The notes below the pieces were generated by a model. It was not told the origin of the DNA. It made no database searches and was given only the letters and a program-made list of their open reading frames with translations. Of a stretch of DNA of 64,000 bases, positions 20,301-58,595 are shown one piece after another. The stretch lies in contig NC_135240.1 in NCBI RefSeq assembly GCF_947623445.1, forward strand, positions 8,060,001 through 8,124,000, in the 5' to 3' direction. Source of the stretch: Clavelina lepadiformis. Taxonomy: Eukaryota > Chordata > Ascidiacea > Aplousobranchia > Clavelinidae. How positions within the stretch are numbered: position 1 is the first letter of the stretch; the number at the start of each line of letters is the position of its first letter. The position numbers were made by a program, and so were the translations under genes.

Positions 20301-20368
20301 ACAACTGACAACAGGTTGTTTTTGCTTAATGACGTCCCATTTTGATGACGTTTAAAGATGTGCAGTTC
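17335..20368 (-). CDS. Two-domain CAP (GAPR-1/GLIPR2-like) protein, left copy, start unclear
   Basis: Exons in transcription order: 20368-19972 (5' end unknown), 19713-19636, 19493-19281, 18916-18845, 18667-18545, 18253-18091, 17943-17798, 17720-17643, 17489-17335 (stop TGA). All frames join, and exon sizes mirror the right copy exon by exon. Two CAP domains are joined by a Thr/Ser-rich linker; the product ends VKPPKQ. GAPR-1 relatives are cytosolic, Golgi-associated lipid-binding proteins related to plant PR-1; the role here is unknown. Oddities: the frame is open from a TGA at 20371-20369 with no ATG, where the right copy has one. The first CAP domain has Asn at both usual His positions (LKNS, GNFT), and the second has GNFT. 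Intron 2 begins GC rather than GT. The donor after exon 5 (GTTTAG) is weak. It may use an upstream start exon, or be a young pseudogene. Confidence 0.72.
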
Positions 20369-20371
20369 TCA

Positions 20372-22412
20372 AATAAACCCTCCCTAATTAGCGAAAAAAC
20401 AAGAACTGCTGTTAATTTTTGCTAATTCAGATTACCAGCAACTTACTAGTACATGCGTTTGAAGACAAAACAGACTAAAATACTTTCGAAGCCCTCGGTT
20501 CAGTTTACAACCAGTGGTGGGATTTAAATACTGCAACATCCGGTTCTCTCACTAGCAACATGCCTTATTGACCCGGGGCCGATATACACATAGGCCTAGA
20601 TACATACGCTTGTTAACAATTGGTTCGCGGGGGTTATTAAAATTCCAAGAACCTGTTGAATCCCACCACTGCCTCGGTTACTACATCTCTCATGACAGTT
20701 ATAATTGCAGTTACTTTCCCTCAAAAGCAAGACACTTCCTAAAAATCTTGGGAAAACTTGTAGGCACCATTTGATTTAATAAAGATATTACACTTTCTTT
20801 CCTGCAATTTCTATATCAATGATTATTCGCTGATGTAAGATGGTGAGTCATATGCTATGTGTACACGCTAGCTCACAGATCAGTACACGACAGCTTATTA
20901 ATCATATTGCTCACCGCTCCTATGAATACGATTAGGTATTAACGAGGTTCATGTAAAGTCAATAAGATGCAATTAATGCGTCAAAACTTTTGTGATAACA
21001 GTATGTAGTTTTTGCCTACGGTCTAAATTTTGATGTTACCGTTGGTGTGAAGACGTTCATAGCGTGGCTAAAAAAATCTTTCTACTAAGATGGGTTGTTC
21101 TATGTTTTTGTTTGAAACTGACGCTATTTCTATATGGCTGATACAACCGTAACTTTAAACTTTGAATTATAATAAAGTTAAGGTTAAGAAAAATGGCTTA
21201 TATAGCGCCGTCGAAACCAGTTTGTAAACCATTTAGCACATCCCATACTTGAGTAATATGAATATGAGTGTAATGTCAATGATATATCAAGTGCTGCACG
21301 TGATGTATTAAAATTTGACTCACGTTAGTAAGGGCATATTGCTAATAAGCGCTCGGGTGTGTTGGCAAAAGCTGGAAGAAGACCTCTAATTAATTTCGTA
21401 ACTCATTGCGGATGAGAGAAAGACAAAGAAGCGTCATCACATCCATATCTAAGGTTAACGTTTAACCGACTTACTCGGATTTTGTTTGATGTACCATGGT
21501 TTAAGATAAACATTGACTTATGCAAGTGCACGTCAGTACCTGTACTTCAATCGTGAAATGAACCAAGTGAACTTTACCCCTGATATTTCAGTATCACGAA
21601 GATAATACACTAAAAAACAAAATGGTTTATATGCTTTGTGTCTTTGCTTGGTATTTTTGTTATGATAGTTGGTTTCATTTTAAATGACCGCGTCTTTACC
21701 ATGGCATGTAACGTCGGAAACTAAATGTGACAAAAACAGGCGACTGTGGTAGAGTGCATCCTCATTGCAAGGCGATGTTGCGGTAACTACAGGTCTTCAT
21801 AGCTTTCTATGGAATAGTCCCACCTTCTTTTCGGACACCTTTTAGAGACGTAAATTAGGCAGATCAAAACAACATCAAAACGATCCAACTTCAAAGTACT
21901 TATTTTTGAAATCAGACAAAAAATTCATTTTCATGGTAATATATTGCATACATGACATGTGTGGAATGTAGCCTACTCAGAACAAAATCAACCAAATAGT
22001 TAACTACGTTCGTTAGTCGTGATCTCTTTCGGTTTTATCAAACACAAACTTATAAATACAATACTCGGGAATATTCGGGATACATCTCATACAAAATTAC
22101 TTCTTATTTAAAATGGGTCAAAGGAGTCTTTGAGAGATGCAGAATATAGTCTATACGTATGACTAAAGGAAATCTACTACATAGCACAAAGAAAAAATTA
22201 AAGTAATTAAACAGGTATAATTGAAGCATTTAGCAATCACACACAAACAAAACGATACTGCATTAAGTTATATAATCATTGACAATCAGCAAGCAACAAT
22301 CCTGCGGAAAAGAAAGTATTTTCTGATAAAGGGAAAATAAACAAGGAAGAACTTAAAAATTATTTGGAACTGTCGATTTGAGGTGATTTGACACATTTGC
22401 TGCAAATTTCTT
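20372..22412. other. Spacer between the tandem CAP genes
   Basis: Lies upstream of the left CAP copy and downstream of the right one. No exon recognised. If the left copy has a separate first exon it should be here, but no obvious ATG-plus-donor candidate was found. Confidence 0.5.
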
Positions 22413-25400
22413 TCATTTTTTGGGTGGTTTTACATTTTTCTCGAAATGTCCCATAAAGTTTCCAGCCGGATAATAATTTGCAACGACAAAGATTGTCCCT
22501 TTTCCATCATCTGCAACCCCAACTCCAATTTCCTTCGAGTCCTCCCACACAACTTGAGTGAAATGTCCTGCAAGAAAATCAGGTCAATTAGATCACTGAG
22601 ATTTTGCGACGTTCGTAGCAAGTTTGATATAACAGTTCGGAAGCGTCAAGCCAATAGATTTTAACCAACCTGTTCCAGATGAAAACTGCGCCTTTTTAAA
22701 GTTGTACTTCTGTATCTCATCGTACCACATGTCAGCAATTTCGTTTCCTGAAATAAAAAGCTTAAAGTTATAACATCAAGTTCACTGGACCATGGAATTT
22801 CGTGCACAAGAAAGTTAACCGCTACCGGATTTACATATCCCATCATTTTACCTCCAAAACGTGTTTTGTTGGACGCGTATTTGTACGCAACGTTCTCGCC
22901 ATACTCTTTGTCGCTACTGTGTTGTAGTCGCCCCAAAGATAGTATGTGCTTGGCCCATTTCTGTGCCTTCTCCGTTAGCTTTTTGTTTCTTTTCAACCTA
23001 AATTGCGATTGCGTGTTATATGCTATACTTCTTTAATTATTCTTAAAGTTTATAATTCTACAATAAGGTATTTGAGTGTCAGGAATTAAACATATATTCT
23101 TCAATTTAGGGAAACAAATTTATTTGTCTTCAGTGCGAATAAATTGCACGTAATTGTATAATTAAAAATATGAAGCATTTAAAAGATTTTCGTTGTTTGC
23201 ACTTACGGAGGAGCTCCGTGCCTCTTCCTCAATTCGTTGTGCCGACTGATGCATTCGTCTTCAAACTTTTTCCTATCTTTTTCGGTCATCTTCTTGGTCT
23301 TTTCATCCTCATCACTGCTGCTGCTGCTGCTGCTGCTCCTATCTCGGATCCGCATGCGACCGACGTCACCGACGACTTTATCATGACGATCTGTAAAACA
23401 CATGCAATGTCTTAAACTGTGGTCTTTCATGCCTTTGTTAAAGCATCTAAAGAAAAGAGATTTTACGCAGAGTAGCTATAAGCTGACACGGGAAATCTTA
23501 TGCGATTTCACGTTGCATTTCCTGTCTTACTTGTCAGCCATTGCTGCAAATCCGAGTGGTGGGTTACATTTCTACGCGGTTTCCTGTAAAATCTAGCGGC
23601 TGAATATCTAGTTGCCATCCTAACATTTGCAAGTATATTGCGACTGTTACTTCATTTCATTACCTTATATAAACGGGTGTCGGGCTATTAGCTCTTCCAA
23701 CGTCAATAGATGCATATTGGCTTGCCGTTCAATATGACAGCAGTTTACTTGCAATTATTTAATAGCTGAGTATTCAGCTAGTATATAAACCTCTTGAGGA
23801 AAGTTGAATAGCTGTAGAAGGCTCTGGAAGTTATTTTCAGATCACACCAAAAGAAAGATGTAATAAAGAAATCCAATTCCCAAATGAATTTCTGTTATCA
23901 CTTCAAAATTGTTGTGCAACATTGCTATCTAGTGACCAACATTTAAAAAACGTGGCAACCACATCTGGCGCTCATGTTTGAACCAATGATAAATTCATGC
24001 TGCGTTTTCATATCGTTTTACATCCTAGGTTAAACACACAGCAGTAAATAAAACATGCATTATGTTCATTACAGTGTGTGATAGCAACATAAAACAAAGC
24101 GTACGAGGATTTGTTCAAACTAGTCGCCTTATATGTTACACTCTTCCAACACCATTTACGATATGTAGGGAAAGCTGTGAATTCATTCATAACAGAGAAT
24201 TGAGACTTCTTTGTGTGGAACAAACTTACTTTTGCTTGAGCTAGCTCCACTCAGGTACTCGGTGTTGACTTCGGTTTTTGTTGACGTCGACTTCGAGCCA
24301 CCCTTTGTCGTTATTGTTGTTGTAGTTTTTGTCGTTTTCCTCACTCGACGACCTGGTAAATAGTACGTGGATTATATACAAAAGAAATGCTTGACAGGTC
24401 ACTATTGTGACGTCATCTCTCACTATCGTGACGCGCCACTGACCGACTGTGTTGAGACTTGATCCTACTTTATTAGATTAGCCTGTATCGATTGTGGGCT
24501 CGTTTTATAAATTAGCCGGTACCTTGTGCCTTTGTGGTATAAACACTATACAGTAAAACGTTAAATTTAGCCATCACAGTATATACGCACGAATAATATT
24601 TAATTATATATCTATGGAAGCAGAGTCGTCTGTAGATTCTGATGGACATGGCATACAAGATTCAAGATGTTGTCTCGATCTTAAAGCTTTTAATCTTAGC
24701 ATCCAAAAGAACTCAACCTGTCACACAGGTATCACAGATATCATATAGAATATACCTCCCGACTAGGGTTACGTAATTAACCAAGCGGGTATACTTATTA
24801 TAACAATGAATACCTTTTTCATCCGTGAATTCCTCGACATCGGTTTTCACTTTTGTTTCAGTTTTGGTTCCACCTTTCTCTGCTGGTTCTGTCATAATGT
24901 TGTTTATTATTTAAGCTTGGGTTTAACAGTACAGTCTGCAGTTTGTTCGTAAAGGAATAACGGAAGTTGCGTCACACTGGTTATTTCCAGACGGATAGCT
25001 AATATACTGCAGAAACTGTTAAAGCCAAACGCTCCCGTCGGTGAGACTATATTACAAGTAATGACCAGCATTCGACGGGAAGCTTTACAATCGGCTGACA
25101 GTACGAGCAGTTTTTGTAAAGATATTATAACAACTATAACTACAGGTTTCATTTACAACACTTCACTGAACACCTAAAGAACTTCAACAGTGTGGAAAAG
25201 CGACAAACGTGTTGTCTTTATTATTACATGTGCGTGTATAGGGAAGTGTCGATCGATGCGCTTTATATTAAGGACGCTGCCTTTGGAAAAACTATAGTAA
25301 AGCTAAACAGTCAAACTTATACTCACGCATATGCTCTCTCATTGATTTCTATGTTCTGTATAGTTATCAATACAAAGAGTATTTCGTGTACCAGATAATG

Positions 25401-26431
25401 ACTGCGTTACCACATCACTTACTCTTTACAACCACTCTTTTCCTTTCCTCCTCGTCCGATGATGATGATGATGACGATGAAGAAGAACTGGAGTCGCGTC
25501 TCTTGCTCCCGGCTGGACAAACGTTCTTTTCAAAGTATCCCGGGTTTGAGATGTTGCCCGGGGGTTCGTAATTGGCTACGACAAACGTCCCCTTAGCGCT
25601 GCTAGCGACACCGATTCCCACATGGGTTGATCCCTTCCATACAACTTGCGTGAAGTGACCTGAGAATGGGGTTGCTTATTTTTTAAAGGGTAAAACATCG
25701 ACGGCAAAACTAATAAAATAACTGGGGCCACGATAACCGAAACTTATGATCCATTGTAAAATCGTTTAGCCGTTGTTTAATTTTTGCATTCGCTACGTTT
25801 CTGTACTCACCTGTTCCTGAACGAAACCCAGGAGAGTTGAATCTGTACTTGGCAATTTCATCATACCACATGGCCGTCATCTCCTTTGCTGCAGTATACA
25901 AACAATGCAAATTTTACTCACGGTTTGCTGTCGATGTAAGGGTTAGTTTATTAAGATGTTACTTGAAGAGTTATGCCTTAATACTATTGAAGAATTTTTA
26001 CCGGTAGGATTTTGCCTGCTTGACATGGCGACATTTTCTCCATAATTGCGATTGTTGGAGTGTTTCAGCACACCTTGAGCTGCCAGCTTATTTGCCCAGT
26101 CCTGTGCGTGGCGAGTAAGTTCACTTTTTCGCTGTAGCGGTTTGGCGCCGTGATTCTTCCTGTACTTGTTATGTACTTCGATGCAATCTTTTTCAAAACT
26201 CCCTTTTGATGACATTTTTAATGCTTTGCTCTTGGTGTTAACGTAGGCTTCAAACTCTTCGACTCCGAAGTTGTCAGAAGACGACGTTTTGAACAATTCT
26301 CTTTTTCTTTCTTCGATACTCGGACCCACGTGGCAAGACAGCAGGTCGTCCTCGCTTGATGACGTCACCTTTTGATGACGTTTAAATTTAGACGACTTTT
26401 TATAATTTCTGCGAGAAAACAAACCACCCAT
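22413..26431 (-). CDS. Two-domain CAP (GAPR-1/GLIPR2-like) protein, right copy
   Basis: Nine exons in transcription order: 26431-26002, 25888-25811, 25659-25423, 24888-24814, 24352-24230, 23390-23207, 22997-22852, 22747-22670, 22567-22413. All introns are phase 1 except the sixth (phase 2). The product is 501 residues, against 154 for single-domain human GAPR-1. It starts MGGLFSRR, so Gly2 makes myristoylation possible, as in GAPR-1, but this is unproven. The first CAP domain (about 80-210) keeps the tetrad H124, E132, E147 and H171, in motifs [16 protein letters not shown] and GHFTQVVW. A linker rich in Ser, Lys and Thr, including poly-Ser from TCA and AGC runs, joins a second CAP domain that also has GHFTQVVW and ends VKPPKK, like GAPR-1. 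No signal peptide is seen, so a cytoplasmic protein is expected. The ATG overlaps a pyrimidine-rich stretch ending CGCAG that could instead be a splice acceptor, so the exact N-terminus is the weakest point. Confidence 0.88.
23320..23341. repeat. CTG/AGC trinucleotide run coding poly-Ser
   Basis: About seven tandem CTG units on the plus strand, read as AGC serine codons in exon 6 of the right CAP gene. The left copy has a broken version of the same run near 18195-18225. Confidence 0.85.
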
Positions 26432-29400
26432 GATTGCTGTAAGAGCTCAAACACGAATAACAGGCAAGCGCTGTCCCATCGCGAGTTTTACACTTGTAAT
26501 GCATTTGATGACAGGATGTAATTACGTCAACACCTTCCTGACATTCAGATTTTTCTTATGATACATTCTAAATGGCTTGTGACAACTTACTCTCCGTAGC
26601 GTGAACTTGCTCAACATTTACATAATATACAGTGGACGAAAATAGATCTACAATTCATAGTACCGCTGCCACTCCTGCCAGCTGACTATTCCGGCAATGG
26701 TCTGTGCTATCTTGCGGGGCCATGTTCTTGTGAAAAGCGGTTCCTTGATCATCTCACTTATCGATCCCGACAACGGGATTAACTATTAACCTAAAACAAG
26801 CCGATCAATGAACTAAGAAAACATAATTTCAAAATCTATCCGAGTGACCGATCACATAGTGCCGAGTACGCTTGCCAGGTGATATATAAGAAAACGAGTA
26901 GAATGTGCGTGAAGCTGCTAACGTGAGCGTCTGACGCATCTCACCATTTTCACCTACAAATCCAAACCTGTCGCTTTCCGATGAATTTTTTCAGCTTAAA
27001 TGTGTTGAATATTGATAAATAAAGAAAAGATCATCTATTTGTTGAAATGTTTCATCGTGTCCGATATAACTAACAACTGGAATTATTTACTGATTCTAAA
27101 ATCTAAACTAAATGGCGTTCACAAACGCCTCCTCTCTGCCTACATTCCTATAGCGCTTATATACCATGAACATCTAACATATGAAACATGGAAATAATGT
27201 TTTCGTTCCACTCTTGTTGTTCGTTTGTGGGTTTGTTTGCTTGGTCTACAAAAATACATTGCAAAACAAACAAGCTTTGCCTTTTTGCCGCACTCGATCT
27301 ATGTATTCTGATGCTGTTCCGGTTTCATTTTTCAGCTCTATCAAAAACAGCATTGTCTGCCACTTATATGTGATATTACCAATATCAAATTAAGAGCAAT
27401 ATAGCGGATATCAATATTGTTATTCATCTTTAAGGGATATATTGATGCTTTACCGGTATATGCATCATCGCGTAAGCGCAGTCATAACCAAAACTCATTG
27501 CAAAACGAAACAGTATCTACAAGCTGTTGATCAAACGCACGTAATAAGAATGAGTGGTATGTTTGACTATTTTGACTTGCTATTTGACTTTCCAACGTTC
27601 GCAAAAATGATGGCACGTCATATATTGAAACGTGGGGTAATTTGAACTTTAAACGGGTATTTTACGGCCGATAATTTCAACAAGTTTGCGAGCAAACATA
27701 ACCTAACAACCAACAAGTTAGAACAAGTGGCCTCTGGTTGGAACTAAACAAAAGCACACGACCTGTTGAGTGAAGATATCAAAGCCTAGTCTCCTGGCAA
27801 TGATTTTCTGCTCCCGATAGAAACGGAAATTACCTTATCCCTGATAGGGACTTTTTGTCCTTATTTCTTTGACATGGTTTTGGAGGTTTCCGGTTAAGTT
27901 TGTACCGAATCTCTTGCTTCTGGGCTTTTTTGTTAAACAAAATTCTAAAACAGCTGAAAGTCCCACATTCCGTAACACCTGGTATTTGGCCCCATGTATT
28001 AAGATTTCCTAATGATCGGTTTCAAAATTCGGCACTAAGTTATCATAACATCTTTTTTAATTTTTTAACGTGAATTTAACCTATAGCAGTTGCTGCATCT
28101 GAAAAGAGTTTTAATCCACTCAACCTCGGTTTTCCTTCGATGGCGAAATTATTTTTCGAAAACTACGAAGTGCTAAACTTTACAACTGTCTTTATTTTTC
28201 TTGCTGGTTTATAGATGTCGTTTTTTTGGGCTTATCAAACTCATTCATGGTTCGGTGTGAATCTGCAAAGGTATATCTGCGGATCTTTGTTCAAAAGCAA
28301 ACAATGTTGGCATTCAAAGCACCTCTCTACACTATGCTGTAAAACAGCCAAATTAATAGAATGTTTTTGCCGATTGTTGTGTCCTCACGGCACAGACGCT
28401 TCCGCTTAAACAGCAGCATTATTATTTACAGCTTACTCATCCTGATAGCAGTGATAATTATTGAATGCATTCATCCATCACGATAGCATCGGTGTTGCAA
28501 GCCAGCTAAATTTTGGCATGAAATTGTTCTTTAAATTGTTGTTGATCTCAAGCCTTGCGTTCACGAAATGTTTTAATACATATGTGTTGTTTCAGGCAGA
28601 CCAATATCATGTATTACAGGTTTCAATGATAAAAGTATCAACTTCATGCTCACTTTAACGTCATAGATGAGAAAATAAACATATGTGCTGGACGCCATAT
28701 AGAGTATTAAATAAACCAAAACCGTCGTAAACTGAACAATGTCCACACACGAACCATTCTTTATAACGGTCCGGTTAGTGTCAATATTTGAGCGTGGAGC
28801 AAGGTATGCGGTAATCTACGTATATACTGTTTATGCACAGGCGTGGTTTCTTTCAATCACATTCAATGACGACGAGGTTTGTTGGTTTCAAACTTTGCTT
28901 TTCGTTCTTCATCATAACCAGCACTCACCAACGTCCTGTTCGACCTAAACTTACGCTTGTAAATAGGTTTCATGTTTAACGCTCTAAAAGGTCACCCTTG
29001 GCTCATCCTATTATAACCTTTGTTCACTATAAATCCACAAGTTGCCTAACATTACACTGTAGCTCTTTTTGAGAGTTTTAGAATGTGTTGCAAGTGATGT
29101 TTATGCCTTGTTCGTAATATTGAATATATGAATAATACAAACAGTTGGTTTTGTCATTATGTGTGATTATTTGTTTGAGCTTTGGACACATTTTGTTAAC
29201 GTGATGCTGACAAATGTACATGCAAGGACGATTTGGCATGTGCATTAGCGTCATATAGCGGATATTGAACTAAACTAACACCTCCACTAAGTGACGCGCT
29301 TGAGCAATATCTAAGCACTTCGCATGCTTAATAGAATCCAATTTCCAAGAGATGGCGCATTTTCTTCAATAAACACCCACAAAATAAGGAAGACTTTTAT

Positions 29401-31732: not shown

Positions 31733-34456
31733 ATGTTCACCAACATGCTCGCCCCCCACCCCCACCATCATAGACCGCCATCGCCTACCTCATCGATGAC
31801 GTCACTAACGACAAGCAACTACAGCAGCGATCAAAAGTACGCTCCGCTACATAACGCGGCTGACGCGATGAGAAGAATGACGTCACCAGTTGCATATTCG
31901 GTGAGAGTTGACGTTTTTTTCGCATCATTACCCAAAATAAAGCATATTTTCATGTCAAAAGTGAGGCACTCTTTTCTGAACATGTCAGTTTTTTCTCGTT
32001 GTTAGACTTAAGTAATGTTCGTGGGAAAGTTGAATGTGCGATTAATGAAGCAAGGGTTCTCGATGAAGTCTAAATAACAATGTTTATAATAGCATGAGTT
32101 AAACAAACAAACCAACGTCGAAATCGGATTACGAAACTTACAAACAATTGTTTACGAATTTGCTCTCTGTGAATCCAAATCTGCCAAGAATGCTTAAAAC
32201 GAAGTCATCAAGCAGCACGAACCCTACGTAACTTGCAAACCCGGTCTCAAGTATGCATAGTGCAAGAAACTGACAATTCAAGAGAAATTTTCTACTGATA
32301 TACGATAGACTATAAATTAGGAAGAGACTTTAATTAGATAATACTGTCTATTGCCACGGTAATTTTTTGGACATCTGTCGATTACACGGCACGACAAAAT
32401 GGCCGCCATCGTTCATACTGCGTGAAATTAGTGAACGGGGACAAAACATTAAAATGCGACTGTGCTGGGCAGATGTTGACTTTATCATAAGTGATTCATC
32501 AGTCATAATATTTTCCATTATTTTTTGCAAAGCACACTTCCATGAGAGAATTTTTCACCAACATAAAAATACACAAGAATTCTTGGCCATTTTATTGATT
32601 TTTGGTTTCGTGCCTTGCAAACTTCTTCGTTCCCTCATCGTTCTTCACAGCATAAGAATTCTTTCACAATACTTTGATTGTTTTGTAAAGTTACGATGAT
32701 TATGTCATTAACCCATATTTGCCTGTATCCAGGGAAATCTATTTGCTGGATTTGACGAAACGTTCTTCGCAAGAGCCGAAGCATTGGCGGCAGTAGACTA
32801 CACAGGAAAAAATCAGTTTAAACCGGAACCAAGCAACCATGCGTACTACGCACCTAGCGCGTCCCATTACGGATCACAACAACACCCAGCGCCTCCAGTG
32901 CCCCCACCAGGTACGTTAAAAAGCTGCGAGGATTTGTTCGTTACCAAATTGTCGCAAGTCACGTCACTAAGTATAGCAGGAAAGAAGAAAATTGGAAAGT
33001 TTTTCCATTTCCTGTTTAACCGACCTTTTATTTCAGTTTACGGTTCAATGCATCCGCCCTCGGCTTTTCATCATACCGCCCTTCAGAGCACCCTCGATTC
33101 CAGTGACGTCATAGATCAGCTGGGATCAAACCACAGGTTAGGAAACCGTTGAAATAAGTTTTGTTGCAGCCTCGAACAGTAAAGATTGTATGTTTGGGCG
33201 CTGTTTGATTAAGGTTTCTTTTACACAAGCATAAACATTAAACCTTTGCAGTGCGCTGTCGCCGTACCAACCGCCAACTTTCAACTCGGCCATGATGTCG
33301 TCGTCAGATTCGCAGTCACCGTACATCGCACATCCAACTCCGACCTACAACCACACAAGTCACTTCCACCCCGTTTCATCAGCAATCCATCCGTCGATTC
33401 CGCCCCCACCAGGCTCCGCTCCGGTTCCTACGATCACAGGTTTGTTGGATGATGCCATTTTGAGGGAGTTTTAGAGGAACAGTTTTTCTGATGCTCCCAA
33501 GTTGCATTAGCTGCAGTTGGCAAGCGAATTGAATTTACATTTTCATGCTTGTCTCATAAAGTAAATTTAAAAGCAAATTAAATTTCTCTTTCAGGTTCGC
33601 CGCCTCCAAACATACCCAACTTTCCGTCGAGTGAATACGACACAGACCCCAGAGAATTAGAAGCTTTTGCAGAAAGGTTAGTCTTGTTTGCACAGACGCA
33701 CATTTCCACAGGTAGCACTTATAAAAAAAAGCAAAAAACATTAAAATGTCCTCGTTTTATCTTGCAGGTTCAAACAGCGGAGAATAAAACTCGGTGTGAC
33801 ACAAAATGACGTAGGACAGGCTTTAGCAAATCTGAAATTGTCCGGTGTTGGATCGCTAAGTCAAAGTACCATTTGCAGGTTTGTGAAAATCTTATTCAGT
33901 TAACACCAGCAAAATGTTACATAATGACTTCGATGCTTTCAGAGGAAAGCTTGCTTGATTGGAATGGATAACGTAGAGTTCCAAAATAATTAAATTTATT
34001 TTATTTTCACAGATTCGAATCGCTCACTTTAAGCCACAACAACATGGTGGCACTCAAACCAATACTAATCACGTGGCTTGAGAAAGCAGAAGAAGAATAC
34101 AGAAGAAAGATGGAGAATGCGGCGCTTGGCGACAAAAAACGAAAACGAACGTCCATCGCTGCTCCTGAAAAACGATCTCTCGAGGCTTATTTTTCCGTCC
34201 AAGTGAGTCGACCGTTTATAATTTTTAATCTAAACAAGTAGTTGTACAGTATGTGGCGATTGGTTGGTAAAAATGGAATAAATTAATCATTTGTGATTTC
34301 TATGTTTTTCAGCCTCGTCCTTCCTCGGAGAAGATCGCTGCCATCGCTGAAAAACTTGACCTGAAGAAGAATGTGGTCAGGGTTTGGTTTTGTAACCAAA
34401 GGCAGAAACAAAAGCGCATGAAGTTCTCAGCGTTTAATGGAGTAGGTTTAGAGTGA
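31733..34456 (+). CDS. POU4: POU class 4 (Brn3/POU IV) homeodomain transcription factor
   Basis: Eight exons: 31733-31900, 32733-32910, 33037-33136, 33252-33439, 33595-33676, 33768-33878, 34013-34202, 34313-34456. All keep frame and give 386 residues. The N-terminal part has [15 protein letters not shown], then the class-4 signature [16 protein letters not shown] at about 63-78. A His/Pro/Ser-rich region follows. The POU-specific domain (about 228-305) contains [20 protein letters not shown] and [20 protein letters not shown]. The homeodomain (about 318-377) runs from [20 protein letters not shown] to the recognition helix [15 protein letters not shown]. Class 4 factors act in the nucleus and specify sensory and other neurons in chordates. 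Vertebrate POU4 genes have only two coding exons, so the eight here reflect intron gain or retention. The assignment is firm because both DNA-binding domains and the POU-IV box are diagnostic. Confidence 0.97.
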
Positions 34457-39850: not shown

Positions 39851-42800
39851 TTATGCGTATGATAATGCTTTTTCAGGGTCGGCTTCTCTGTAAGGCTGCG
39901 TTGGATCTGGAACCTTTTCGGGCGACGGCGGAGGACGCACCTGAGCTAAAAGCACAGACAGAAAAGGTCACGGCAAATAAACAATTACGACTATTTAGGC
40001 ATGTACAGTAAATATAGAGATCGCGATACTGTTTATGAGACTCACGCGCAGGGATTGTTTTTCCAAAATCGTTTATTCTTTCATCTTTCCATCCGACAAT
40101 TCGTGCCATCATGTATGGTTCGGGTATTTCCATGTTCCCTTTGAAATCGTTTAGAAGCTGGTTACCCTTGGCAACGCCGAGAAGTACGCTCGATTCTTCA
40201 TTGTTTACTTCAATTTCGTTTGAGGTTTCATATGCGGACGTATAGTGGTTGACTGATTTTTCATAATAACCCTAAAATAACACCGATTGTTTATAACTAC
40301 CCAGAGTTAAATCAATTCTGACACCTAGTGGTGTTTCTATCGTACAGATCATTGCTCGCAAGGGGGCAGAAGTGATTGTAAAATACTGTACTCCACGACA
40401 TATTTCCTAATATTAACACTAGTCTAAAGTTAAAAAAACTTAAACTCATTGCCCCGATACCAGAGTGTTGTATATGGTGCCCAGGCAATTGCACGCATCA
40501 ATAAACTCCCTCTTTCGGTCGTCGGAGCGAGAGGTTTCGACAAAGAGTTCCAGGAATTCAATGGACTTGTTGACATTTCCCTGAGTTTGATGCGATTTGG
40601 CAAGAGCTTCACACGCTTCGCCGATCAAATGTTGGTCCTCAATTGCCTGAGCGGCTTCAAGACAGCTTTTCAGGTACTATAAAAGCAAACATTTAATGCA
40701 CTAACTTTGCTCGAAGGTTGTACCTTCGTACCCTCGTACATTATAAATTTGTAGCTTAACAGTCGACGTTGTTTTCATAATTTGAAGTTCATTTTCATCA
40801 AATTCGGTTTCAATTTCACTTGAACTATTTTCCAAGGATCCAAGAGAATTTTACCAATTAATATAATAAAATGTTCCCGCGTTAAATTCAATTGCTTTGT
40901 ACAGAAATATGATGCCTTTGCTCAGAGAATGCATTGTTACCTCCATAGCAGTTTCTGAGTCTCTTATTTGTTCATAGTTGCGGCCCAGCTTTAGGGCTGC
41001 TTGTGCAATCTGTAAAACGTCGTCACCCTCCTTAGCCATCTCATAGGCTTTGTGTAAAAATGACTGACAGGTTTGTACACTTGGATTGCTTTCAGCAAGA
41101 GTTGTGTAAACTCTGCAAAAGAGACTTGTGATATTTCATTTTTCCTAAAAGCATATTATCAGGCAAATATTAAGTATACTGTTCTCAAAACTTCAAAGTT
41201 TGAAAATATATTTGAAGGTGTTTTTCTGTATGGCTATTTGTGCCATGTTATACAACTACACCACACAAAACTATCATAACTTTCATAGAAATTGATGAAA
41301 CCAGCATACACTATACAGCTTGACAATGAACGATCTTCTATTGGTAAAATACCTCGATAAATGTCTGCAAGCTGTTTGACAGTGTGTGATGTCATCATCA
41401 TTTCTCCAAGCCCTGCCAACACTGAGCTGATGAAATTGTTCCAAGTGACGAGACGCGCCCTCATGATCGCCTATGAAGCTCTACACTTTTAGATGCGATG
41501 ACTAACTCATAGTTATAGCATTAACTTTGGAAAGTTACTCATACTTTGGTTAACGTAACTATTACTAATGGTATATTTAAATTATAGTCATTACACCAGA
41601 TCAGAGCAGAAAACTAGCTAAAGAGCAACCATTAAGGATCGCTGACAAGAAATGTTATATACCGTTTCTCTCGCAAGACAAGCCCATATTACAGTGAGCC
41701 TCCGCCTCACGCTTCCTGCCATCTAATCTGATGTTCAGGCTGGTTTCCAAGGCAGTTTTAAAGAAATGGTCGGACAACCAGCCATCTCCTGTCTCTAGAA
41801 AGTACTGTGCCAACTTGTGTCTGCATGAGTAAACTTCCTCCCATTTTCCTTGTATTGAAAATAAGAAACTTGTGGTTAAAACTACGGTGAAATTGCGAAG
41901 TATTTTAACACGACCGAACAAAACAGTGTTATGTTTGCAAATATTCGCTAATTTTAAAAATTTAATTTGACCTATATGATTAGACTACAGTATTACCTCA
42001 TACATTGCAAGCCAGTATAAAATTGTTTCAACAAGTATACACATCACGTAATTCAATGGGGTAATCTTATGATAGTAACTGAACTGTTTAAGGACTTGTT
42101 AACAAATGTAAAAATCATCTCACCACTTCTTGTTGCAGCTTCAGCTTTTGTGAGATAAACAAGTAACTGATCAAGCTTTTCTTCTTGTACATCGAGAGGT
42201 TTTTCCTGACAATAAATGCAAATTAACATGTCACAACATTGTTTTTAGGAATGACACAATAAAATTAATCTTAAACGCACAGAAATATGTCATTTTTGTA
42301 TTCCTTAAAAGTGTTTTTGAAAATTTCTTCAAGCTTTTATTTTGGGAAATTTATTTAAGCATTAAGTTTGAAGAAACATTTTTGTATTTATTAGAATAAG
42401 GTACATACAGCAGCGTTATGGGTAGCATTGCTCTTACTTGCCACAGGACAGAGTCAATACCCGCTTCCAGACGTTCTTGTTTACGTTGTTCGATGAGACT
42501 AAAGAGTTCTTCAAAAGATTTATGGAAACCTTCTTTCAACATTTGAATGCAGAGATTGTGTTTGTATGAATTTCGATATCTAAAACGCAGATGTAATTGC
42601 ACCATTTGATATTACATTTGCCTGGTTAAAACGCGAAGGTTGGTCGCGTACTTGATTCCAAACATTGGGGGATGAAAAGTTAAGGTTCTCAATGCCCTGG
42701 GTCAATGACACTAATGAGAGTAGGGCGGCCGGTTCCTTTCTCTCGATCGCCTTTTGCCTTCGACAGTATGTCTATCCCGAAACCCATGTTATTTTACCCA

Positions 42801-49258: not shown

Positions 49259-51115
49259 GTGAGTGTTACGTTATAAATGTACTCATTTGCTGTTATGACT
49301 TTCATCACAGTGAACATCATTATGGCCAGCCCAGCTAATAGCGTGTTTGTCAAGTCAGGCATCAGCGAGTTTAATTGAAAGTATATTTGACCGCTGCGGT
49401 TTTCCACTTTAGCTATACAGCAAACTTCTGTTTGGTAATTAAAATATTGGTTAAGGTGATTAACGAATTTGAACTTTAAACGATTTTAACGAGTTTTGCG
49501 CGACTTCGTTTACAAAACAAACTACTTTAAATTTCGCTTACCTGTAGGTAATCTGATACCTATTCATAAAAGTCAGGGATTCATAAACATATCGTGGCAA
49601 TACTTATCAGTAAAAATAAAAATTGACAAGGAGGAAACTGCAAATAAAATTTGTTTTTGCAGCAAGCTACTCAATAATATTTACAGCAGAAATCGGAAAC
49701 ATTCGCCAGACGGCATCGTAATCTGTCAATAACAATAACTCTGGTTAGTTATTTTATATGATTAATAATTTGCACCTGCTATAATTTCAAGAACATATCT
49801 TACACGAAGAACACTTTACCGCCTGACCAAACTACACCTGTATGTAAGTCTTAGCTGTTCATATTAGAAATAAGCCAATATCGATGACAGCGCTTAAAAG
49901 ATCAACAGAAATACTTTAACACAACTATAATTAAACAGTCATGAAAACCTTGTCGAATTAAGTGCTTTTTCTCTTTAACTGTTAGATACTGACGTTTGCA
50001 CATCCACGCCTTTAAAATAAATTCCACATAACACAGTCATTGTTACTATGACGCTGTAGTTGGTAAGTGATTCTGGCCTCGAACGATGTTAAGTCCTGCG
50101 TCGATTTGTACCTGTAAACCCTGTCAATTAGTTTTGTGATTTTATCTAAGTTATATGAATGTTATTTTTTTTCGCTGTTATAATCTCACTATACATAACC
50201 GTCTTTGGCACAAAAAAGTGTTTAACAATTTATTGGTCCCCTTAAAAAAGAAGCATCATTATCCACAACCAATAATAAAGCACCTGGTTGGGTCCAAGGG
50301 TTCCATTCGACATGTCAAGATATATTTTAATCAGATGGCGCCTCCGTCCAGAAAACTTCTTCTGTGGTCGTCAGCTTGTCAATTCAAAGCTGCTATTCAC
50401 AAACCATCTTTCTGAAAGGTATTTTGTGGCATTGCCTGACAAATATTGACGGTATTTCATATTTTACAAATGATAAGATAACGCCAGAACAAACACTTTA
50501 GTATTTTGCAAAAAACCGAGTAGTTAGAATGAGGAACGCCAATTCGAATGAACAAATATCGGAAAATCCAACTTGTTCATGTCAATGCAATGACGCGCTC
50601 TGTTGTTCATAAATTGATTGTAAGCCATCTTAAGCGGTTTCGCGTAAATGCCTTGACTGGGCCAAGGAATAACGTTGCGTTTGAAGACTTTTGCCTGTTG
50701 AAGTTGTACTCACAACAAATTAGACGCAAATGCGCTTAATCTTCGGCTGAGACAGAGCCAGTTCGAATTCCTAGAACATTCGTAAAACAACCCAAAAATT
50801 GGCCCAAAACCGACCTTTTGAGACGAGGACGTGTTTATGGCACGACTGGTAGTTTGAACAAGCTGTACAGGCTAAAACAAACTTAGCAGTAACATAAAAT
50901 CATCGCCAGAAACCAAAAAAACTAGAGAAAGTGTATTTCTTCCAAACTACAAAACAACAATAAATAACGATGATATGCTGCAGTAATGGAACGTGGTCGC
51001 CAGGTAAAGACAATAAAAAAAGTAAACGAAAATAAAATTTACGCAAAAATTAAATGGAAAAATAAAAAGGACGACCCAATACTGTATTTTGATAAACTAA
51101 AATAACGCGAAAAAT

Positions 51116-54100
51116 TCAGGTCAAAACAGACTTTATAAAATCGTTTCGTATGGTGTTCCTTTTCGTTCTCCGTCGCGACGAAGGTGCGTAATTGGCATTA
51201 TTTTGAAAATGTTCGTTCGTATGGTGAACCGATTTTTGAGGTTTACGTCTTGTATCATTCTTAGACGGCTTCTTTCTTCTTTTCCTTCCTTTATTGGGCT
51301 GGCCTTTTCTTCCTACAAATAGAGATGGTTATGAGAACACGGTTCGGTATTTTCCCGGCTCCGGCAAGAAAACTGGGCGAGTGTGACTCGGCAACACGAA
51401 AGTTAAGATTGTAGAACAATCGCTGGAACAGTTTTCACCCACTAACTATATTCGCAGTAAGTAACGAAAAGACGATAGAAAAGCACTTGAAAATTCTTAG
51501 CGAGTTCAGTGTTGCAAAATAAAACGCGACCAATTATCATGGACATGAATAATACAGAAAGGTCCATATCCATTGTCATCGGCGATCGACCCTTGCGGAA
51601 ATTGGCAGCAAAGTGGGCCGTTTATTCGTTTGTAACGCTCCGTGTGCCCAGTGCATATAACGAGATTATTTCGTCAGCGATGAAACAGGCTGTCGAATGA
51701 TGTCACGACATTTCACCGCTAGCTTTACGAACCGGCAAAAGTATGCTAATCTGCTTAATCGAAAGCATGGCGAGTGTTAATAAAGCACGATCGGTGCATT
51801 GACTCCTTTAACTGGCATTAACTGGTTAAAGGAGATTCCACACCAATCAAATTACCTGTTTTAACCCGACGGACCGTGAGTTAATTGTGCGGCGATGAAC
51901 CTTGGCAACCCAACGTTGGTATTCTACCATGAACGGATCATGTTGTAAGCTAATTTTCTTTGACATGTTTTCATAGAAGACTGCGTAATTAAAAGACTAA
52001 TTGCTGGACAACAGACCAACCCTTCTGTAGGTGAAGCACGTCACTTTATGAAGTTGTATGTAGTAACGGCGGCGGTATGTACGTTTATAACTAAATTCAT
52101 GTCAAGTCTTCAATGGCCGAATAAAAGTTAATCTATTTCTCTTCTCTTCTATTTTCGTTGGAATAAATATTTATATGAGTCAATTAAAATCGTAAATATT
52201 GTATAGTAACATTTTCCCCGGAATAAAGTCGTACATATTTAACGAGTGGAGAAGTGTAAATTTAGTTTTCGTTTTCTCAATTTTAATTGCTTAAATGTGT
52301 TGTCTTGTTTCACCCAACACCCTGTACCATTTGAGGATATACAACCAGAAGCTCTGTATTTGCTGGACACTCACAGATACATTCTCCTTAGCAAGAATAG
52401 GCTACAGAAAGAAATAATATCTTTAAAGTAATTGACAATTAATTTTGGAAATTGACCGTAAAACCGCAACCAGTTAACCATGTCTACTTACAGCGAGTAA
52501 TGCTGAATATTTTCGGTTAATTAAGGCGTGGACATGTATTGTTCAGACTAATCCTGTGTAATTGGAATACCGATACGATGTATAGAGAACTGAAGCCACC
52601 TCAAGATTCAAGATTTATATATAACAGTAGCTAATGTACCATACTCACTTCTACAGGTTTTATAACGAACTAATCTTTGCCGACAACGACTGTTCGAAGA
52701 CGGTTGCGGCAGGATTCGACGCACTTTCACTTGCCTGCACCTTTTCTTGGTGCACCGACAAGGACCCCACTTGCCCCATCGTGATAACGTGCAATGATGC
52801 CCTGCAACATACGTTCATTTTCGTAAGACAAGTTTCTCGGAGTCGAATTCACACATTGCGCGAGTTGGTTGTAATGCGGTTGGTGATCAAGGATTTCATT
52901 TCTTTCAAGGACTGATTTGCAGAATTTTTCCATACCATTAAATTACACACAAACGCTATTTTAAATACTGTATGTCTCATATATAGGGCAGAGCAGGTGG
53001 TCCATTACGTTTTCGTATTATAGACATGTTGCTGGTAATTTGGCAAACTTTACCTCTTGCACGGCATCTTGAAGTCTTAGCAACTGGGGTTAGGCCTTTC
53101 GGGCACTGAGTGTGACAGTTATTCTTATGTAAGAAATAACCCTGTCTACATCTTAAGCAGTGGTTCTTTTTTGAGCATCGCTTGCATTTTTCGTCGCAGA
53201 CTGCAAGAAAATAGCAACGTTTCACACAACAACCTCAACTGTAAAGATCTGCCTTACTCACTTTAAAACGCGAAGCACTTTTTGAATTATTCACATACTT
53301 CAAATAACAAGACACTAATAGAACTAATAAATCTGACACCTTGTAATTTACACGTAGAAGTCCGTCGGTCTGCCGTCAGACCAATTGGACATTGTTGAAA
53401 ACAACTATTTTCGTGAAGATAACGCCCAAGTGCACATCCGGCGCAAATATTTTCTTCCGTGCAGGTTGTGCAATTGGTGACGTCACAAGCTAGAACAAAA
53501 GTTTCTTTGTTTCATGTATACTGTAAATATTTCGTTTATGCAAAGCTGGCGATTTCAAAGCCGTTCCTTACCTACGCATTGCCCTCTTTCTGCGCTGGCT
53601 GAAAACCCAAGTGGGCAATTCCTTACGCAAGCTCCTTCATATTCGAGGAAGCCAGGGGAACATTGGGTACAGTAATTTTCGAAAGAACATCGTACACAGT
53701 TTTCGTCGTTACAAGCTGTCAATAAAAACATTACTGTTGTAATCGTCATAACTATAATAGGCTAATGATATTACGTCATATATAGTCTAGGTTCGTACAA
53801 CATAATTAAGTTGTCATAAGGCGGAAGGAGCATATATGTACAGTTGTACACACCTAATTGCGCTTTCTATGTAGTGACGTGAATCAACCTGTGACTGTGC
53901 AAGTTACAAACATAGTTTTCGAAAATGCAGTTTGTAATCGGCGAAAATTTTTTGGGATATTGGATTAACAGCGAGATCACAAATCGAAATCATTATAGTG
54001 GAAAAGTTACATAGGGCTAAAGTTACACAATGCATTCTTTGCACCGTGTGAAAATCTAGAACAGTATTTGTCCGAACGTGATTGATAAATCGTTTAAAAG

Positions 54101-56837
54101 TCCGTTAGACGAATATCATTTGTACGTGACTCCAAGTCTATTGAAGCATGTATATTATATGACTTCTCTCGGTAATATGATAGTTCTGTAGAACCAGTGT
54201 GCAATCGACACCTACGGCCTAGGCCCAGCCGAAACCAACACATAGCCTAATCCATAGCTAACAGAGGAGGTTTAAAAAGTAAACAGCAGATCAACCAACC
54301 CGCAAATTTAGCGCAAAATGCTAAAGGCAACTGCAACTAAAGCAGGCTAATAAATACTCTTGGTGTATCCTTTCACTAAGCCAAGGCTTTATGTTACATC
54401 TTCCATGTTTGCTTTTACGCTTCATTTAAAAATAATGAAACAGGAAACAACGTTCGACGACTGAGGCAACCTCAAGGTTGGCATCACTGGCATAGCTTCC
54501 CACCATTACGGATTTATGCAGCTGCTTTTGCTTCACAAAAGAAGTGATTATTCTTGTCCTTGCGAAACAATCCCGCATACGTTTTCAAAGGGCGAGAATC
54601 TAAGCATGCGATGGGTCGCCTAAGCACGAAAGTTTCGAAGTATTTTCAAAATCAACATTGATTAAATCAGATGTGTTCGTGTTCTCTATGTGGAGATATC
54701 ATGTAACTATGTCGCCACATACGGCAATAACCAAGTTCAGACGAAGTTTTTTTTGCGAGAACTGTGAACTTCAGCCACGGGCGATGCGCTGGAAGCCTCG
54801 ACCCCCATGACAAAGTAAATTTGAAGCTTAACTTATTTGGTCCTCGTGGGTGGTGATTTTTAAGGAAATAAGTTCGCCAGCAGACTACTTCGGAAGTTTG
54901 GGGTCGAGACAAGGTAAAAGAAAAGAAATATGGCCAATTTGGGCAATCTCTCTGCAAAACACAAATATTATGCGTCTGCTGGAAAGTATATTTTTTGTTT
55001 ATAGGTTTTTAAAATATTTCCTCCGTTATTTAATGTATCAACAAAAGTTGTCCGTCATTAATACATTGCGTCCACGTAATCACGAAGATATTTCTGGAAA
55101 CTTTTAAGAGTATAATTTAGAAAGCAAGTAGCGCAAATAATTTAGCGGTGTTCAAACACATAATTTACTGGGGGCGTCGACATCAGGGGCTGAGAATCTG
55201 TTTCGCCGTGTCACCAGTCGTGCGTAACCGTAACACTAACCTAAGAAACCACAGTGTAATTATCCAACCTTTATACTCCTTAATTACAGGCGGCCTGTCT
55301 CTGAACAATGCCCCCTCCATAAACAAGGCAAAACGACGGAGAATTTCCCGCGTACGATTAGTCCCTAGCTAAGCAGAGACGCTCAAACGTTGCTTATATC
55401 TGCAAAATTCACGACAAAAAGTTCATTTTGCAGAGAAGACAACGAGCGCTTTTTAGCAGGTTCGTGGTAAATTCCCTCCCATCTTAAAGTTTATATCACC
55501 GTAAATATTGTGGTCCTCAAAGGCGTATTCAAAGCTATGATAATGATCCCTCCCATTAACAATACATTGTCGTTCCCCAGTTAATCAAACGTTGTATGTG
55601 CGACAGTGCATTGTAGCAGCCTAGAATAAAACCAGATCAAAATCAAATTGAAACGCAGGACAGTAGAATAATAAACAACGACTCACGTCTGCAATTATTT
55701 TCTCTGGAAGACCTCTCTTCGTAATATTTTTCTGGACAATCGACGCGGCATACTCCTTGTGTAATGTGAGGTTGTAAAGGATCAGAATAAATGTGAAGAA
55801 AGTATCTCCTCTCACATTCAATGCATCCGTTGCCTTCGCTGCAGCTCCTACACTTTGAATCACACGCTACGAGGGGCGAGGAAGTACCTGAAAACAAAAA
55901 ACTATTGAACGTGCGATACAGACAACTTTGAAAAGGTACACACAGTTGGATGGATCACCGGCGGTAAAGTTGGTAACAGGTTCTCCTGTTGCCCACTTAG
56001 TTACTTGATTTTTTTATTCCGTCACTTTTTGCAGATGAAGTTAGTTACCAACTACTTAGTTGCTTATTCATTTACTTAATCGTAGATGAGGATGTTTAAT
56101 AATTTTTATGACTGAGTTACCAAGGAACCAATAATCAACATCATTACCACTATGTAACACGTAAGCAGACCATATAGTAAAAGCTTTAACAGCTATTTAA
56201 ACTCTCTAGCTAAGCGTAGTTGATTACTTCCCATATCTGTGAATGTTAAGCACAAAAAATAAGATTTAGAAAGTTGCGGGCGAAAATTAATTTTCAGCGA
56301 ACTAAATTCTGTTTTTCATATTTATGCAGGAGCTGGTGGCTGGTGGTTTCCTTGCAGAAAACAGAAGTATATTTTTTTCCTGCCGTTGAAATGAGGAAGT
56401 TTGTATACGGATCTCTCAAACTCGTTTCCTTTTTTAAAGATTTTTCACTTTCAAGTGGATACGGAATTTATCTGGTTTTGTTTGTTTAAGGAGTGAAAAT
56501 TTTATGCAAGTGTGACGAATATGGTACAAGAATAATTTCAAAAAATTCCAAAATTAAATGGTAAATAAAAAGTAACGCTTACAAATTAGACAAACGTACT
56601 AAGCTGGCATCTTTGTAACATTATTTCAACAGCCAAACACTTGACCTTACAACTTGATAAACCAACAACAATAATGTTAAAACAACAGAAACCTCTCAGA
56701 TGGTTGTGTTGGCTCTCAATGAGATTAGGACAGAAGCGATGACGTCTTCCAATTGACCGAGCGTCGACAAAACGCAAAGTGGCGAACACGTAGATCAGAA
56801 AAAATTTAGTAACAAAAGTACCACCAGGATAGGTCAT
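51116..56837 (-). CDS. RSPO: R-spondin-like Wnt agonist with four furin-like repeats
   Basis: Seven exons in transcription order: 56837-56693, 55887-55687, 53715-53572, 53489-53340, 53200-53054, 52801-52649, 51312-51116. All introns are phase 1, and the total is 378 residues, against about 230-270 in vertebrate R-spondins. Exon 1 encodes a signal peptide and a basic GRRHRF site. Four eight-cysteine furin-like repeats follow, one per exon: FU1 at 49-115 (CDSKCRSCSEGNGCIEC, with the long inter-cysteine loop typical of R-spondin FU1), FU2 at 116-163, FU3 at 164-213 and FU4 at 214-262. A thrombospondin type 1 repeat (263-313) has the core WGKWGPC. The last exon encodes a Lys/Arg-rich tail (314-378; GRKRRKKPS). 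Signal peptide, FU repeats, TSP1 and basic region in this order define R-spondins, secreted ligands that boost Wnt signalling through LGR4-6 and ZNRF3/RNF43. Vertebrate members have two FU repeats; the extra two probably arose by duplication of a phase 1-1 exon. The exon 1 donor (GTTTCT) is weak, so that junction is less certain. Confidence 0.9.
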
Positions 56838-58595
56838 ATCTCAAGAAAACACCTAAATTTGAATGGCTGAGACATACTTTTTTAAGATGAAGAACAGCAT
56901 TTACAAGAGTACAGGGAAGGTCCTCACACACACACTGTTTTGCTACACCACCCTCTGTAACTTTAACCTATTAAGTTTCTGTGATTCCATTTGTGTTCGT
57001 CGACAACCCACGACGGGGATCAAAGACTGCTTATAAAAACGATGTTGTTCCTGAGACTGTGCAAATACAGGTGTCGTGCTACCAATGGGCTTGTTGCCAT
57101 CGAGGGTCAGGAAATCTTTTGTCGTTTGGACGCTGCGCAACAGTATTTGTGCAGTTTGTAATACCAAATGATAGCGCAGTCGTTAACTAACATCGTTTGC
57201 CATTAGAAGAATAAGTGGCTCTTATCGGACTAACGTGTTGCGCCCTACGAACAAAAACACAGAATGTCGATCTTTGCTACAAAGTTTTAAGGTCGGAAGA
57301 AGGGCACGCAGACCAGCTCGAACCCATTATCGGATGAAGTTACAACTAGGTACGACACCGGACCACCTAATAATCCGTAATTGTAGCAATTTAGGACGGA
57401 ATCAATATTTTTTTAAATAATGCATTGTAAAAACGCATCTCGACTATTTTAATTGCCTTATGAGCATCTGGACATGTTTGAGTCATTGAGTGGTTTATTG
57501 AGTTTGCGTTAACTGTAAGCAAATTTACATCGGATCACGTCATTTCTGAAAAACGTCTAAACGAGGCACTAAAAGCTTTTAAGTCTCAAATGCTCACATC
57601 ACGCTGAACTCACAAACACCCAAAGAATTTAAATTTTGCATGCGATAAAATTCCACGAACAGGTTAACATTCGTCGCCATACTTTGAAATTGACCGCCGC
57701 AAAAAAGTCTGCAAATTTTTGACACTGCGCAGGTGCGTCATGTTTTGTCTCTGTGCGATGATGTTCATCACAGGGGTAACTTTCATTCAAGAGGAATTTC
57801 AAAGTCGACATTGTACCATCTTTTGCTGACGCACTTGTGTCACGTTATCTGCAGCCGTTCGCATCATGTTTCGTATGTTTCAATTTAAATGGACTAGAAA
57901 GCAACTTAAAAGTTTAAAACTTTGTTTAGAGAAATTTTTCTGAAGCAACCGGCAATCTCACGACCAAATCACCCACCAGCCCTATTAGTTCGGGTATATT
58001 AGGCTGCTGTACATGGCACCAGCTTCATTTTTGGCTTTACATAACATGAAAATTCTCTCTTATGCGCTTGGCTGCGCAAATTGAACGTCGCTTGATGTAT
58101 CAGTTCTCAATCGTCAACTCTCATCATCACTCGACGGCTTATAGCAGTGATCCCTAGTCTTTTTTAGTCATGGGAATTCAAAAATAGTTTTCAAGTCTGC
58201 AGACCGCAACATAGCAGGATTACGGCTCGTATGCTGTGATATATGCATGTAAGTAGCTATAGCTACAGTATAGCAAATCTTTTGCCAAACCTTACAATAC
58301 TATTTTAACCTTTCCAAATCGAACAGTCATGCGCCGCTCCTACAAGATTTCCATTTGGATGTTGTACACGTACCGTACATTAACCACTTTTGGCTCAGTT
58401 TTAATTTAAAAGCTACCCGACCTGACACAGTTCATTCAATGAAAAAAGATAATGTTTTTGAAATTTATTGCCAAATATTTATCATGACCTTTGCGGACCC
58501 CCTGAAAGCTTTCTACAGACCACAGGTTGGAAACTACTACCACGCAATGTCATGTCACGATATATTGACCTGACCCAACAAATGGAAGTATAAGC

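Follow-up and report, generated by a model that had tools for sequence, protein, structure and literature searches.

The 64,000-nucleotide stretch of the Clavelina lepadiformis genome analysed here (contig NC_135240.1, positions 8,060,001 to 8,124,000; hereafter the window, on which positions are counted unless another contig is named) carries on its minus strand, from 56837 to 51116, a gene that by its sequence is an R-spondin, with four furin-like (FU) repeats as against the two of the usual R-spondin. One of these repeats is of the FU1 class and three are of the FU2 class. We consider it probable that the product is a tunicate R-spondin acting as a secreted Wnt potentiator, its FU repeats being followed by a repeat of TSP1 type and then by a basic tail. 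FU1 would dock on the ZNRF3/RNF43 ectodomain and at least one FU2-class repeat on the LGR4/5/6 ectodomain, the TSP1 repeat and tail would keep the ligand on heparan sulphate, and with ZNRF3/RNF43 cleared, Wnt receptors would remain on the cell surface. Duplication of a symmetric phase 1-1 exon would have produced the additional FU2-class repeats, which may act as a spacer, as additional LGR sites, or as both.

The seven exons predicted in a first-pass annotation of the locus were reproduced at the same coordinates, and once spliced give 378 codons and a stop. Each of the six introns (805, 1971, 82, 139, 252 and 1336 bases, in order) is GT-AG and phase 1, and GC content is 45% in exons and 38% in introns. 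The predicted protein consists of a hydrophobic N-terminus, FU1 to FU4 with one exon apiece, the TSP1-like repeat and the basic tail. An in-frame TGA stands two codons upstream of the ATG, and the hydrophobic N-terminal stretch, FFLIYVFATLRFVDA, is signal-peptide-like as judged by eye. The exons are as follows.

56693..56837, minus strand: exon 1, with start codon, signal-peptide-like hydrophobic N-terminus and basic stretch; 3' end at 56693, or at 56651 with the other donor
55687..55887, minus strand: exon 2, FU1, with eight cysteines and a long hairpin; 38.3 bits, Furin-like_2 positions 2-55
53572..53715, minus strand: exon 3, FU2, of the FU2 class; 27.2 bits, Furin-like_2 positions 57-102
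53340..53489, minus strand: exon 4, FU3, of the FU2 class; 27.4 bits, Furin-like_2 positions 57-102
53054..53200, minus strand: exon 5, FU4, of the FU2 class and top-scoring against vertebrate FU2; 30.9 bits, Furin-like_2 positions 60-102
52649..52801, minus strand: exon 6, TSP1 repeat in degenerate form; retains WxxW, has CRC following WGP and lacks the last cysteine of the human repeat
51116..51312, minus strand: exon 7, basic tail and stop; 21 K/R and 3 D/E in 64 residues

Two splice donors weigh against this gene model. The exon 1 donor at 56692 (GTTTCT) is weak, as is the donor after the FU3 exon at 53339 (GTGTCA), both by a rough donor-scoring table that was not trained on this species. 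An alternative exon 1 donor at 56650 (GTAAGG) scores higher, is also phase 1 and would add 14 residues ahead of FU1. As all FU exons are phase 1-1, any of them can be skipped in frame, and repeat number could be tuned by splicing. This structure and the weak donor after FU3 would suit a gene in which alternative splicing leaves out or combines the symmetric FU exons, its main protein having two or three repeats, but all four exons retain eight cysteines and open frames, as expected if every exon is used, and we regard this alternative as quite improbable. It is very unlikely indeed that the locus represents an assembly error or two fused genes: nothing was found in favour of this, the four FU exons agree at 48-59% of the bases aligned and are too diverged for a duplicated assembly stretch, and there is a single N-terminal exon, a single TSP1 repeat and a single tail in continuous phase. 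Repeat finding over 51000-57000 gave only two short, chance-like pairs; scanning the window with Rfam and for tRNAs returned no matches, nor did an NCBIfam search.

The R-spondin identity held up well. Furin-like_2 (PF15913) matches the whole protein at 1.3e-28 and 99.7 bits (cut-off 28), with residues 59-162, that is FU1 and FU2, as its best stretch. Of the 15 distinct PDB sequences with an E of 1 or less, 13 come from RSPO1 or RSPO2, each at 1.2e-11 or better, and the two remaining stand at 0.67 and 0.72. An FU profile built from the four window and eight human repeats was run on all 2468 open frames in the window that reach 18 amino acids; it matched the four FU exons at 4.1e-19 to 1.1e-16, values that are optimistic because the window repeats sit in the profile, and the next-best frame at 0.16, so that no fifth FU exon was found among these frames. 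Pfam's own Furin-like_2 model picks the same four exons, although FU2 and FU3 (27.2 and 27.4 bits), each alone, fall just below its cut-off. Cysteines counted on the spliced translation number eight in every FU exon, and with the two models this bears out the earlier description of four consecutive phase 1-1 exons, each with one eight-cysteine repeat. In the whole genome (209 Mb in 95 contigs), a search with the family, in which 11 candidates were scored, gave nine places with an E of 10 or less, and the four window exons, at 1.7e-6 to 0.0033, were the only ones below 0.01. The five places outside the window were weak, the best having an E of 0.02 and an internal stop, and among these candidates there was no convincing second R-spondin. 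We classify the gene as an R-spondin. Two FU repeats are the usual number rather than a family-defining one, because proteins with three repeats count as R-spondins, as passages of PMC6073468 indicate.

Division of Furin-like_2 by exon places FU1 in the first half of the model and FU2, FU3 and FU4 in the second. Profiles of the four human FU1 and the four human FU2 repeats, those of RSPO3 and RSPO4 included, gave FU1 41.7 bits to human FU1 and 13.8 to human FU2; FU2, FU3 and FU4 scored 31.1, 37.1 and 40.1 bits to human FU2 and 14.9, 9.9 and 18.9 to human FU1. A tree of single repeats, such as the first-pass annotation had proposed for a wider set of animals, was run with 12 rows from the window and human proteins, and it parts window and human FU1 from window FU2-4 and human FU2 with support 76/81. 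Because the Furin-like_2 halves, the human profiles and the tree agree, the gene is best described as having one FU1-class repeat and three FU2-class repeats, and FU1, which had been recognised by its longer loop, is of the expected class by all three measures. Several features of the comparison weigh against this description. None of the nine inner branches of the tree attains the level that the tool counts as good support, and the tool gave long-branch warnings for window FU1, FU2 and FU3. Identity outside the cysteines is 20-32% among FU2-4 and 22-28% between them and FU2 of human RSPO1/2; by this measure FU4 is nearer still to RSPO2 FU1 (32%), although its alignment score there is half as high (54 versus 107-110 to human FU2).

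Symmetric 1-1 exons and three FU2-class copies make exon duplication the likely route to the extra repeats, as had been suggested. The further suggestion that FU4 is orthologous to vertebrate FU2, with FU2 and FU3 inserted between FU1 and FU4, fared less well. FU4 does have the top score against vertebrate FU2, both by profile (40.1 versus 37.1 and 31.1 bits) and by Pfam (30.9 versus 27.4 and 27.2), its branch is much the shortest (0.14 versus 3.5 and 2.52 for the other two FU2-class repeats) and it adjoins TSP1. However, the margins are 3-9 bits, and the three repeats overlap in their pairwise scores to RSPO1 FU2 and RSPO2 FU2 (97/110 for FU2, 104/105 for FU3 and 107/110 for FU4). In the tree the human FU2 repeats are one group (89/93) and window FU2, FU3 and FU4 all lie outside it in no settled order, so that none is nested with vertebrate FU2 and the tree, poorly resolved as it is, does not bear out an insertion of FU2 and FU3 ahead of a true FU2. 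The last cysteine of FU1 and the first of FU2 have two residues between them, the spacing seen in human RSPO1 and RSPO2 (the FU2-FU3 and FU3-FU4 links are two and four), and in Rspo3 of ray-finned fish the extra repeat follows FU2, the opposite order, according to passages of PMC12111769. This history is rather unlikely in our judgement; scores, tree and links do not choose among FU2, FU3 and FU4 and single out none as the counterpart of vertebrate FU2. FU3 and FU4 are the closest pair, with 13 of 41 non-cysteine positions shared (8/40 and 10/39 in the other pairs).

It could also be argued that a form with many repeats is old, dating from the chordate or deuterostome ancestor, and that vertebrates lost repeats, since FU2-4 are roughly as distant from one another as from human FU2. 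Tunicates evolve fast, however, and because such evolution mimics age these distances may only look old. Moreover, a survey of 430 animal species with 1496 homologues takes two repeats as the traditional form, although the words tunicate, Ciona and Branchiostoma are absent from its main text (PMC12111769). An ancient origin is in our view quite unlikely.

Beyond the FU repeats, the TSP1 repeat that had been proposed is present in degenerate form. It keeps WxxW, but exon 6 with the start of the tail matches TSP1_spondin (PF19028) at 18.1 bits and E 0.0033, far under the cut-off of 41, and this counts against the proposed architecture. No match to PF19028 was reported for the whole spliced protein, and the repeat does not appear among the 150 PF19028 places that were scored for the genome, out of 817 candidates. 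The FU4-TSP1-tail portion nevertheless aligns to RSPO2 at 35.7 bits in phmmer. The tail is basic as claimed, with 21 K/R against 3 D/E. A survey for which PF19028 is a requirement, such as that of 430 species (PMC12111769), could drop such a protein. Separately, clusters of many spondin-type TSP1 repeats occur on contigs C4 and C7, among those 150 scored places.

Genes resembling both receptors are present in the same genome. The ZNRF3/RNF43-like gene on contig C2 has three collinear matches to the PF18212 ectodomain, at 29.0, 21.1 and 20.8 bits (cut-off 26.2). The strand that carries them also has, roughly 1.5 kb further downstream, a RING piece with 68% identity over 34 residues to an RNF43 RING query, the best of 12 places; a RING pattern search of about 20 kb around the ectodomain had given nothing, and the homology search afterwards located the piece there. 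The assignment is weakened in that only one of the three ectodomain matches exceeds the cut-off and that this strongest one spans a TAG, close to its upstream end, that may mark the intron border. Another, weaker PF18212 match (18.7 bits) is on contig C73. The LGR4/5/6-like gene is on contig C6, at roughly 821546-827273. Four of its exons when joined (72, 144, 72 and 72 bases, encoding five leucine-rich repeats, LRRs) align to LGR4 112-230 with a best E of 3e-52. Among 65 sequences the first 11 places all go to LGR4, the top one at 179 bits, followed by the IGF-binding acid-labile subunit at 149, further LGR4 and LGR5 at 144. Exons taken singly are less uniform. For one LRR exon, unrelated LRR proteins outscore LGR5 (52 versus 39 bits), another gives LGR4 at 77 bits, and the transmembrane exon, a point against the assignment, prefers FSHR (78 bits) to LGR4 (61). 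The gene was assigned as LGR4/5/6-like because the second LRR exon and the four joined exons favour LGR4. At positions which we take to be the Trp and Ala of LGR4/5 that contact R-spondins it has R and V, and it keeps the Asp residues that we presume to be further contacts; we found no printed source for either set.

Other matches in these searches concern different genes. The best match to an LGR5 transmembrane query, C7:13806087, was rejected as an LGR partner, since glycoprotein hormone receptors score 116 bits there versus 46 for LGR4. Among the 65 matches to that query are many long intronless open frames of about 800-850 amino acids, for example on C5 (L019) and C3 (L021), the latter two with LDLa-like repeats ahead of a rhodopsin-type core as seen by eye. 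In the window itself a RING-finger piece of another RING gene lies at 9290-9379 on the plus strand, with 50% identity over 30 residues to the RNF43 query.

The contact residues bear on how such a ligand would engage its receptors. In RSPO1, FU1 contacts ZNRF3 through R66 and Q71 and FU2 contacts LGR through F106 and F110 (PMC4548225, PMC5800842 and PMC12111769, in the passages available), and the Phe pair is required for LGR binding (PMC4548225, PMC5800842, likewise). The pair aligns to S/Y in FU2, T/I in FU3 and S/H in FU4, so that no FU2-class repeat has Phe at either position; R66 aligns to S in window FU1; and the Q71 position is ambiguous, as it adjoins a three-residue insertion in FU1 and hinges on gap placement. 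These substitutions are evidence against docking of the kind proposed. They do not disqualify the gene from the family, as the Phe pair is a functional feature. FU4 has the LHK of the human hairpin; FU2 has an aromatic residue at the second Phe position, and the FCTKC of human FU2 is replaced in it by YCTQC. LGR binding by the FU2-class repeats is plausible, though it is not readable from sequence.

The missing Phe pair also invites the view that this R-spondin is decoupled from LGRs, its FU2-class repeats having lost LGR binding and forming a stalk, while activity would depend on FU1 and on the attachment of TSP1 and tail to heparan sulphate, in the manner of LGR-independent signalling by RSPO2 and RSPO3. 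The basic tail would suit this, as would the altered LGR gene, with R and V at the presumed Trp and Ala contacts and the presumed Asp contacts kept. The possibility is a real one because human RSPO3 can signal without LGRs, which requires FU1 and TSP/BR but not FU2, as passages of PMC5800842 and PMC7239654 report. Against it, the genome retains an LGR4/5/6-like gene, FU4 has the LHK hairpin, the TSP1 repeat is degenerate, and R66, on which LGR-independent signalling relies, is gone too. Changes on ligand and receptor may also compensate mutually. We hold it rather unlikely, and prefer an R-spondin that would still dock on LGR4/5/6 through at least one FU2-class repeat. A bolder proposal, which we offer as tentative and rather doubtful, is that the LGR module was triplicated, the Phe pair lost and LGR4/5/6 changed to match, giving another LGR grip or valency, or a Wnt booster free of LGRs.

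Tunicates are the sister group of vertebrates. With one R-spondin, LGR4/5/6-like and ZNRF3/RNF43-like genes, Clavelina is a natural and simple system in which to ask how many FU repeats an R-spondin needs, whether the FU2 module needs the Phe pair and whether the LGR link is ancestral.

Elsewhere in the window, open frames at 12407-13547 on the plus strand resemble, mostly by eye, a voltage-sensing phosphatase of the VSP/TPTE type; 12750-13064 scores 87 bits to the voltage-sensor containing phosphatase of PDB 4g80/4g7v, which we take to be from Ciona, versus 42 to TPTE2. Several mutually similar frames at 19222-26446 on the minus strand look CAP/SCP-like by eye, and of two tested, 25946-26446 matches PF00188 at 1.2e-9 and 22664-23032 gave no match. 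The open frame at 32712-33149 on the plus strand has no Pfam match and contains a 10-residue motif that we presume to be that of POU4/Brn3. Frames at 39876-41984 on the minus strand resemble tetratricopeptide repeats, one of three tested (40854-41135) matching TPR-type models below their cut-offs. Among animals, cellulose synthase is a mark of tunicates; a single match to it occurs in this genome, on a 309-amino-acid open frame at 28.7 bits (cut-off 24.7), with a model that also matches four of 14 control genomes.

Comparison with known R-spondins places the Clavelina gene one repeat beyond the three-repeat form described from ray-finned fish. Tunicate R-spondin may have been used in earlier published trees, as PMC5786327 has an R-spondin tree figure whose legend includes Ciona and PMC6585022 contains an RSPO family tree. 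A hemichordate r-spondin has been cloned as well (GU076102.1, cited in PMC5786327). Our searches of open-licence papers met no report of a four-repeat R-spondin, which is weak evidence of absence. With vertebrate RSPO1-4 the predicted protein shares a putative signal peptide, FU1-class and FU2-class repeats, a putative TSP1 repeat and a basic tail; it differs in having four FU repeats and seven coding exons, in lacking the FU2 Phe pair and R66 of FU1, and in a TSP1 repeat with CRC and without the last cysteine. Human and mouse RSPO3 have five exons, whereas zebrafish rspo3 has six, the extra exon being a third FU repeat that is also found in medaka, fugu, stickleback and gar and not in elephant shark (passages of PMC4053527). 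The two repeats ascribed to vertebrates in the first-pass annotation are thus the traditional form and not the only one, three being present in ray-finned fish Rspo3 (PMC4053527, PMC6073468, PMC12111769, each in part); the survey gives them for some ray-finned fish RSPO3, once written RSPO2/3, and locates the extra repeat between FU2 and TSP1 (PMC12111769, in part). This third repeat resembles FU2, according to part of PMC6073468, and in embryos the three-FU Rspo3 of zebrafish and tongue sole reportedly acts as an antagonist of Wnt/beta-catenin signalling. Like Rspo3 of zebrafish, medaka, fugu, stickleback, gar and tongue sole, the Clavelina gene has extra FU2-like sequence on its own exon before TSP1; it differs in having four repeats rather than three and in belonging to a separate lineage, for which reason the two gains are presumably independent. 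R-spondins with an extra FU exon were already known, and the four-FU form of Clavelina goes one repeat beyond the three-FU form of ray-finned fish.

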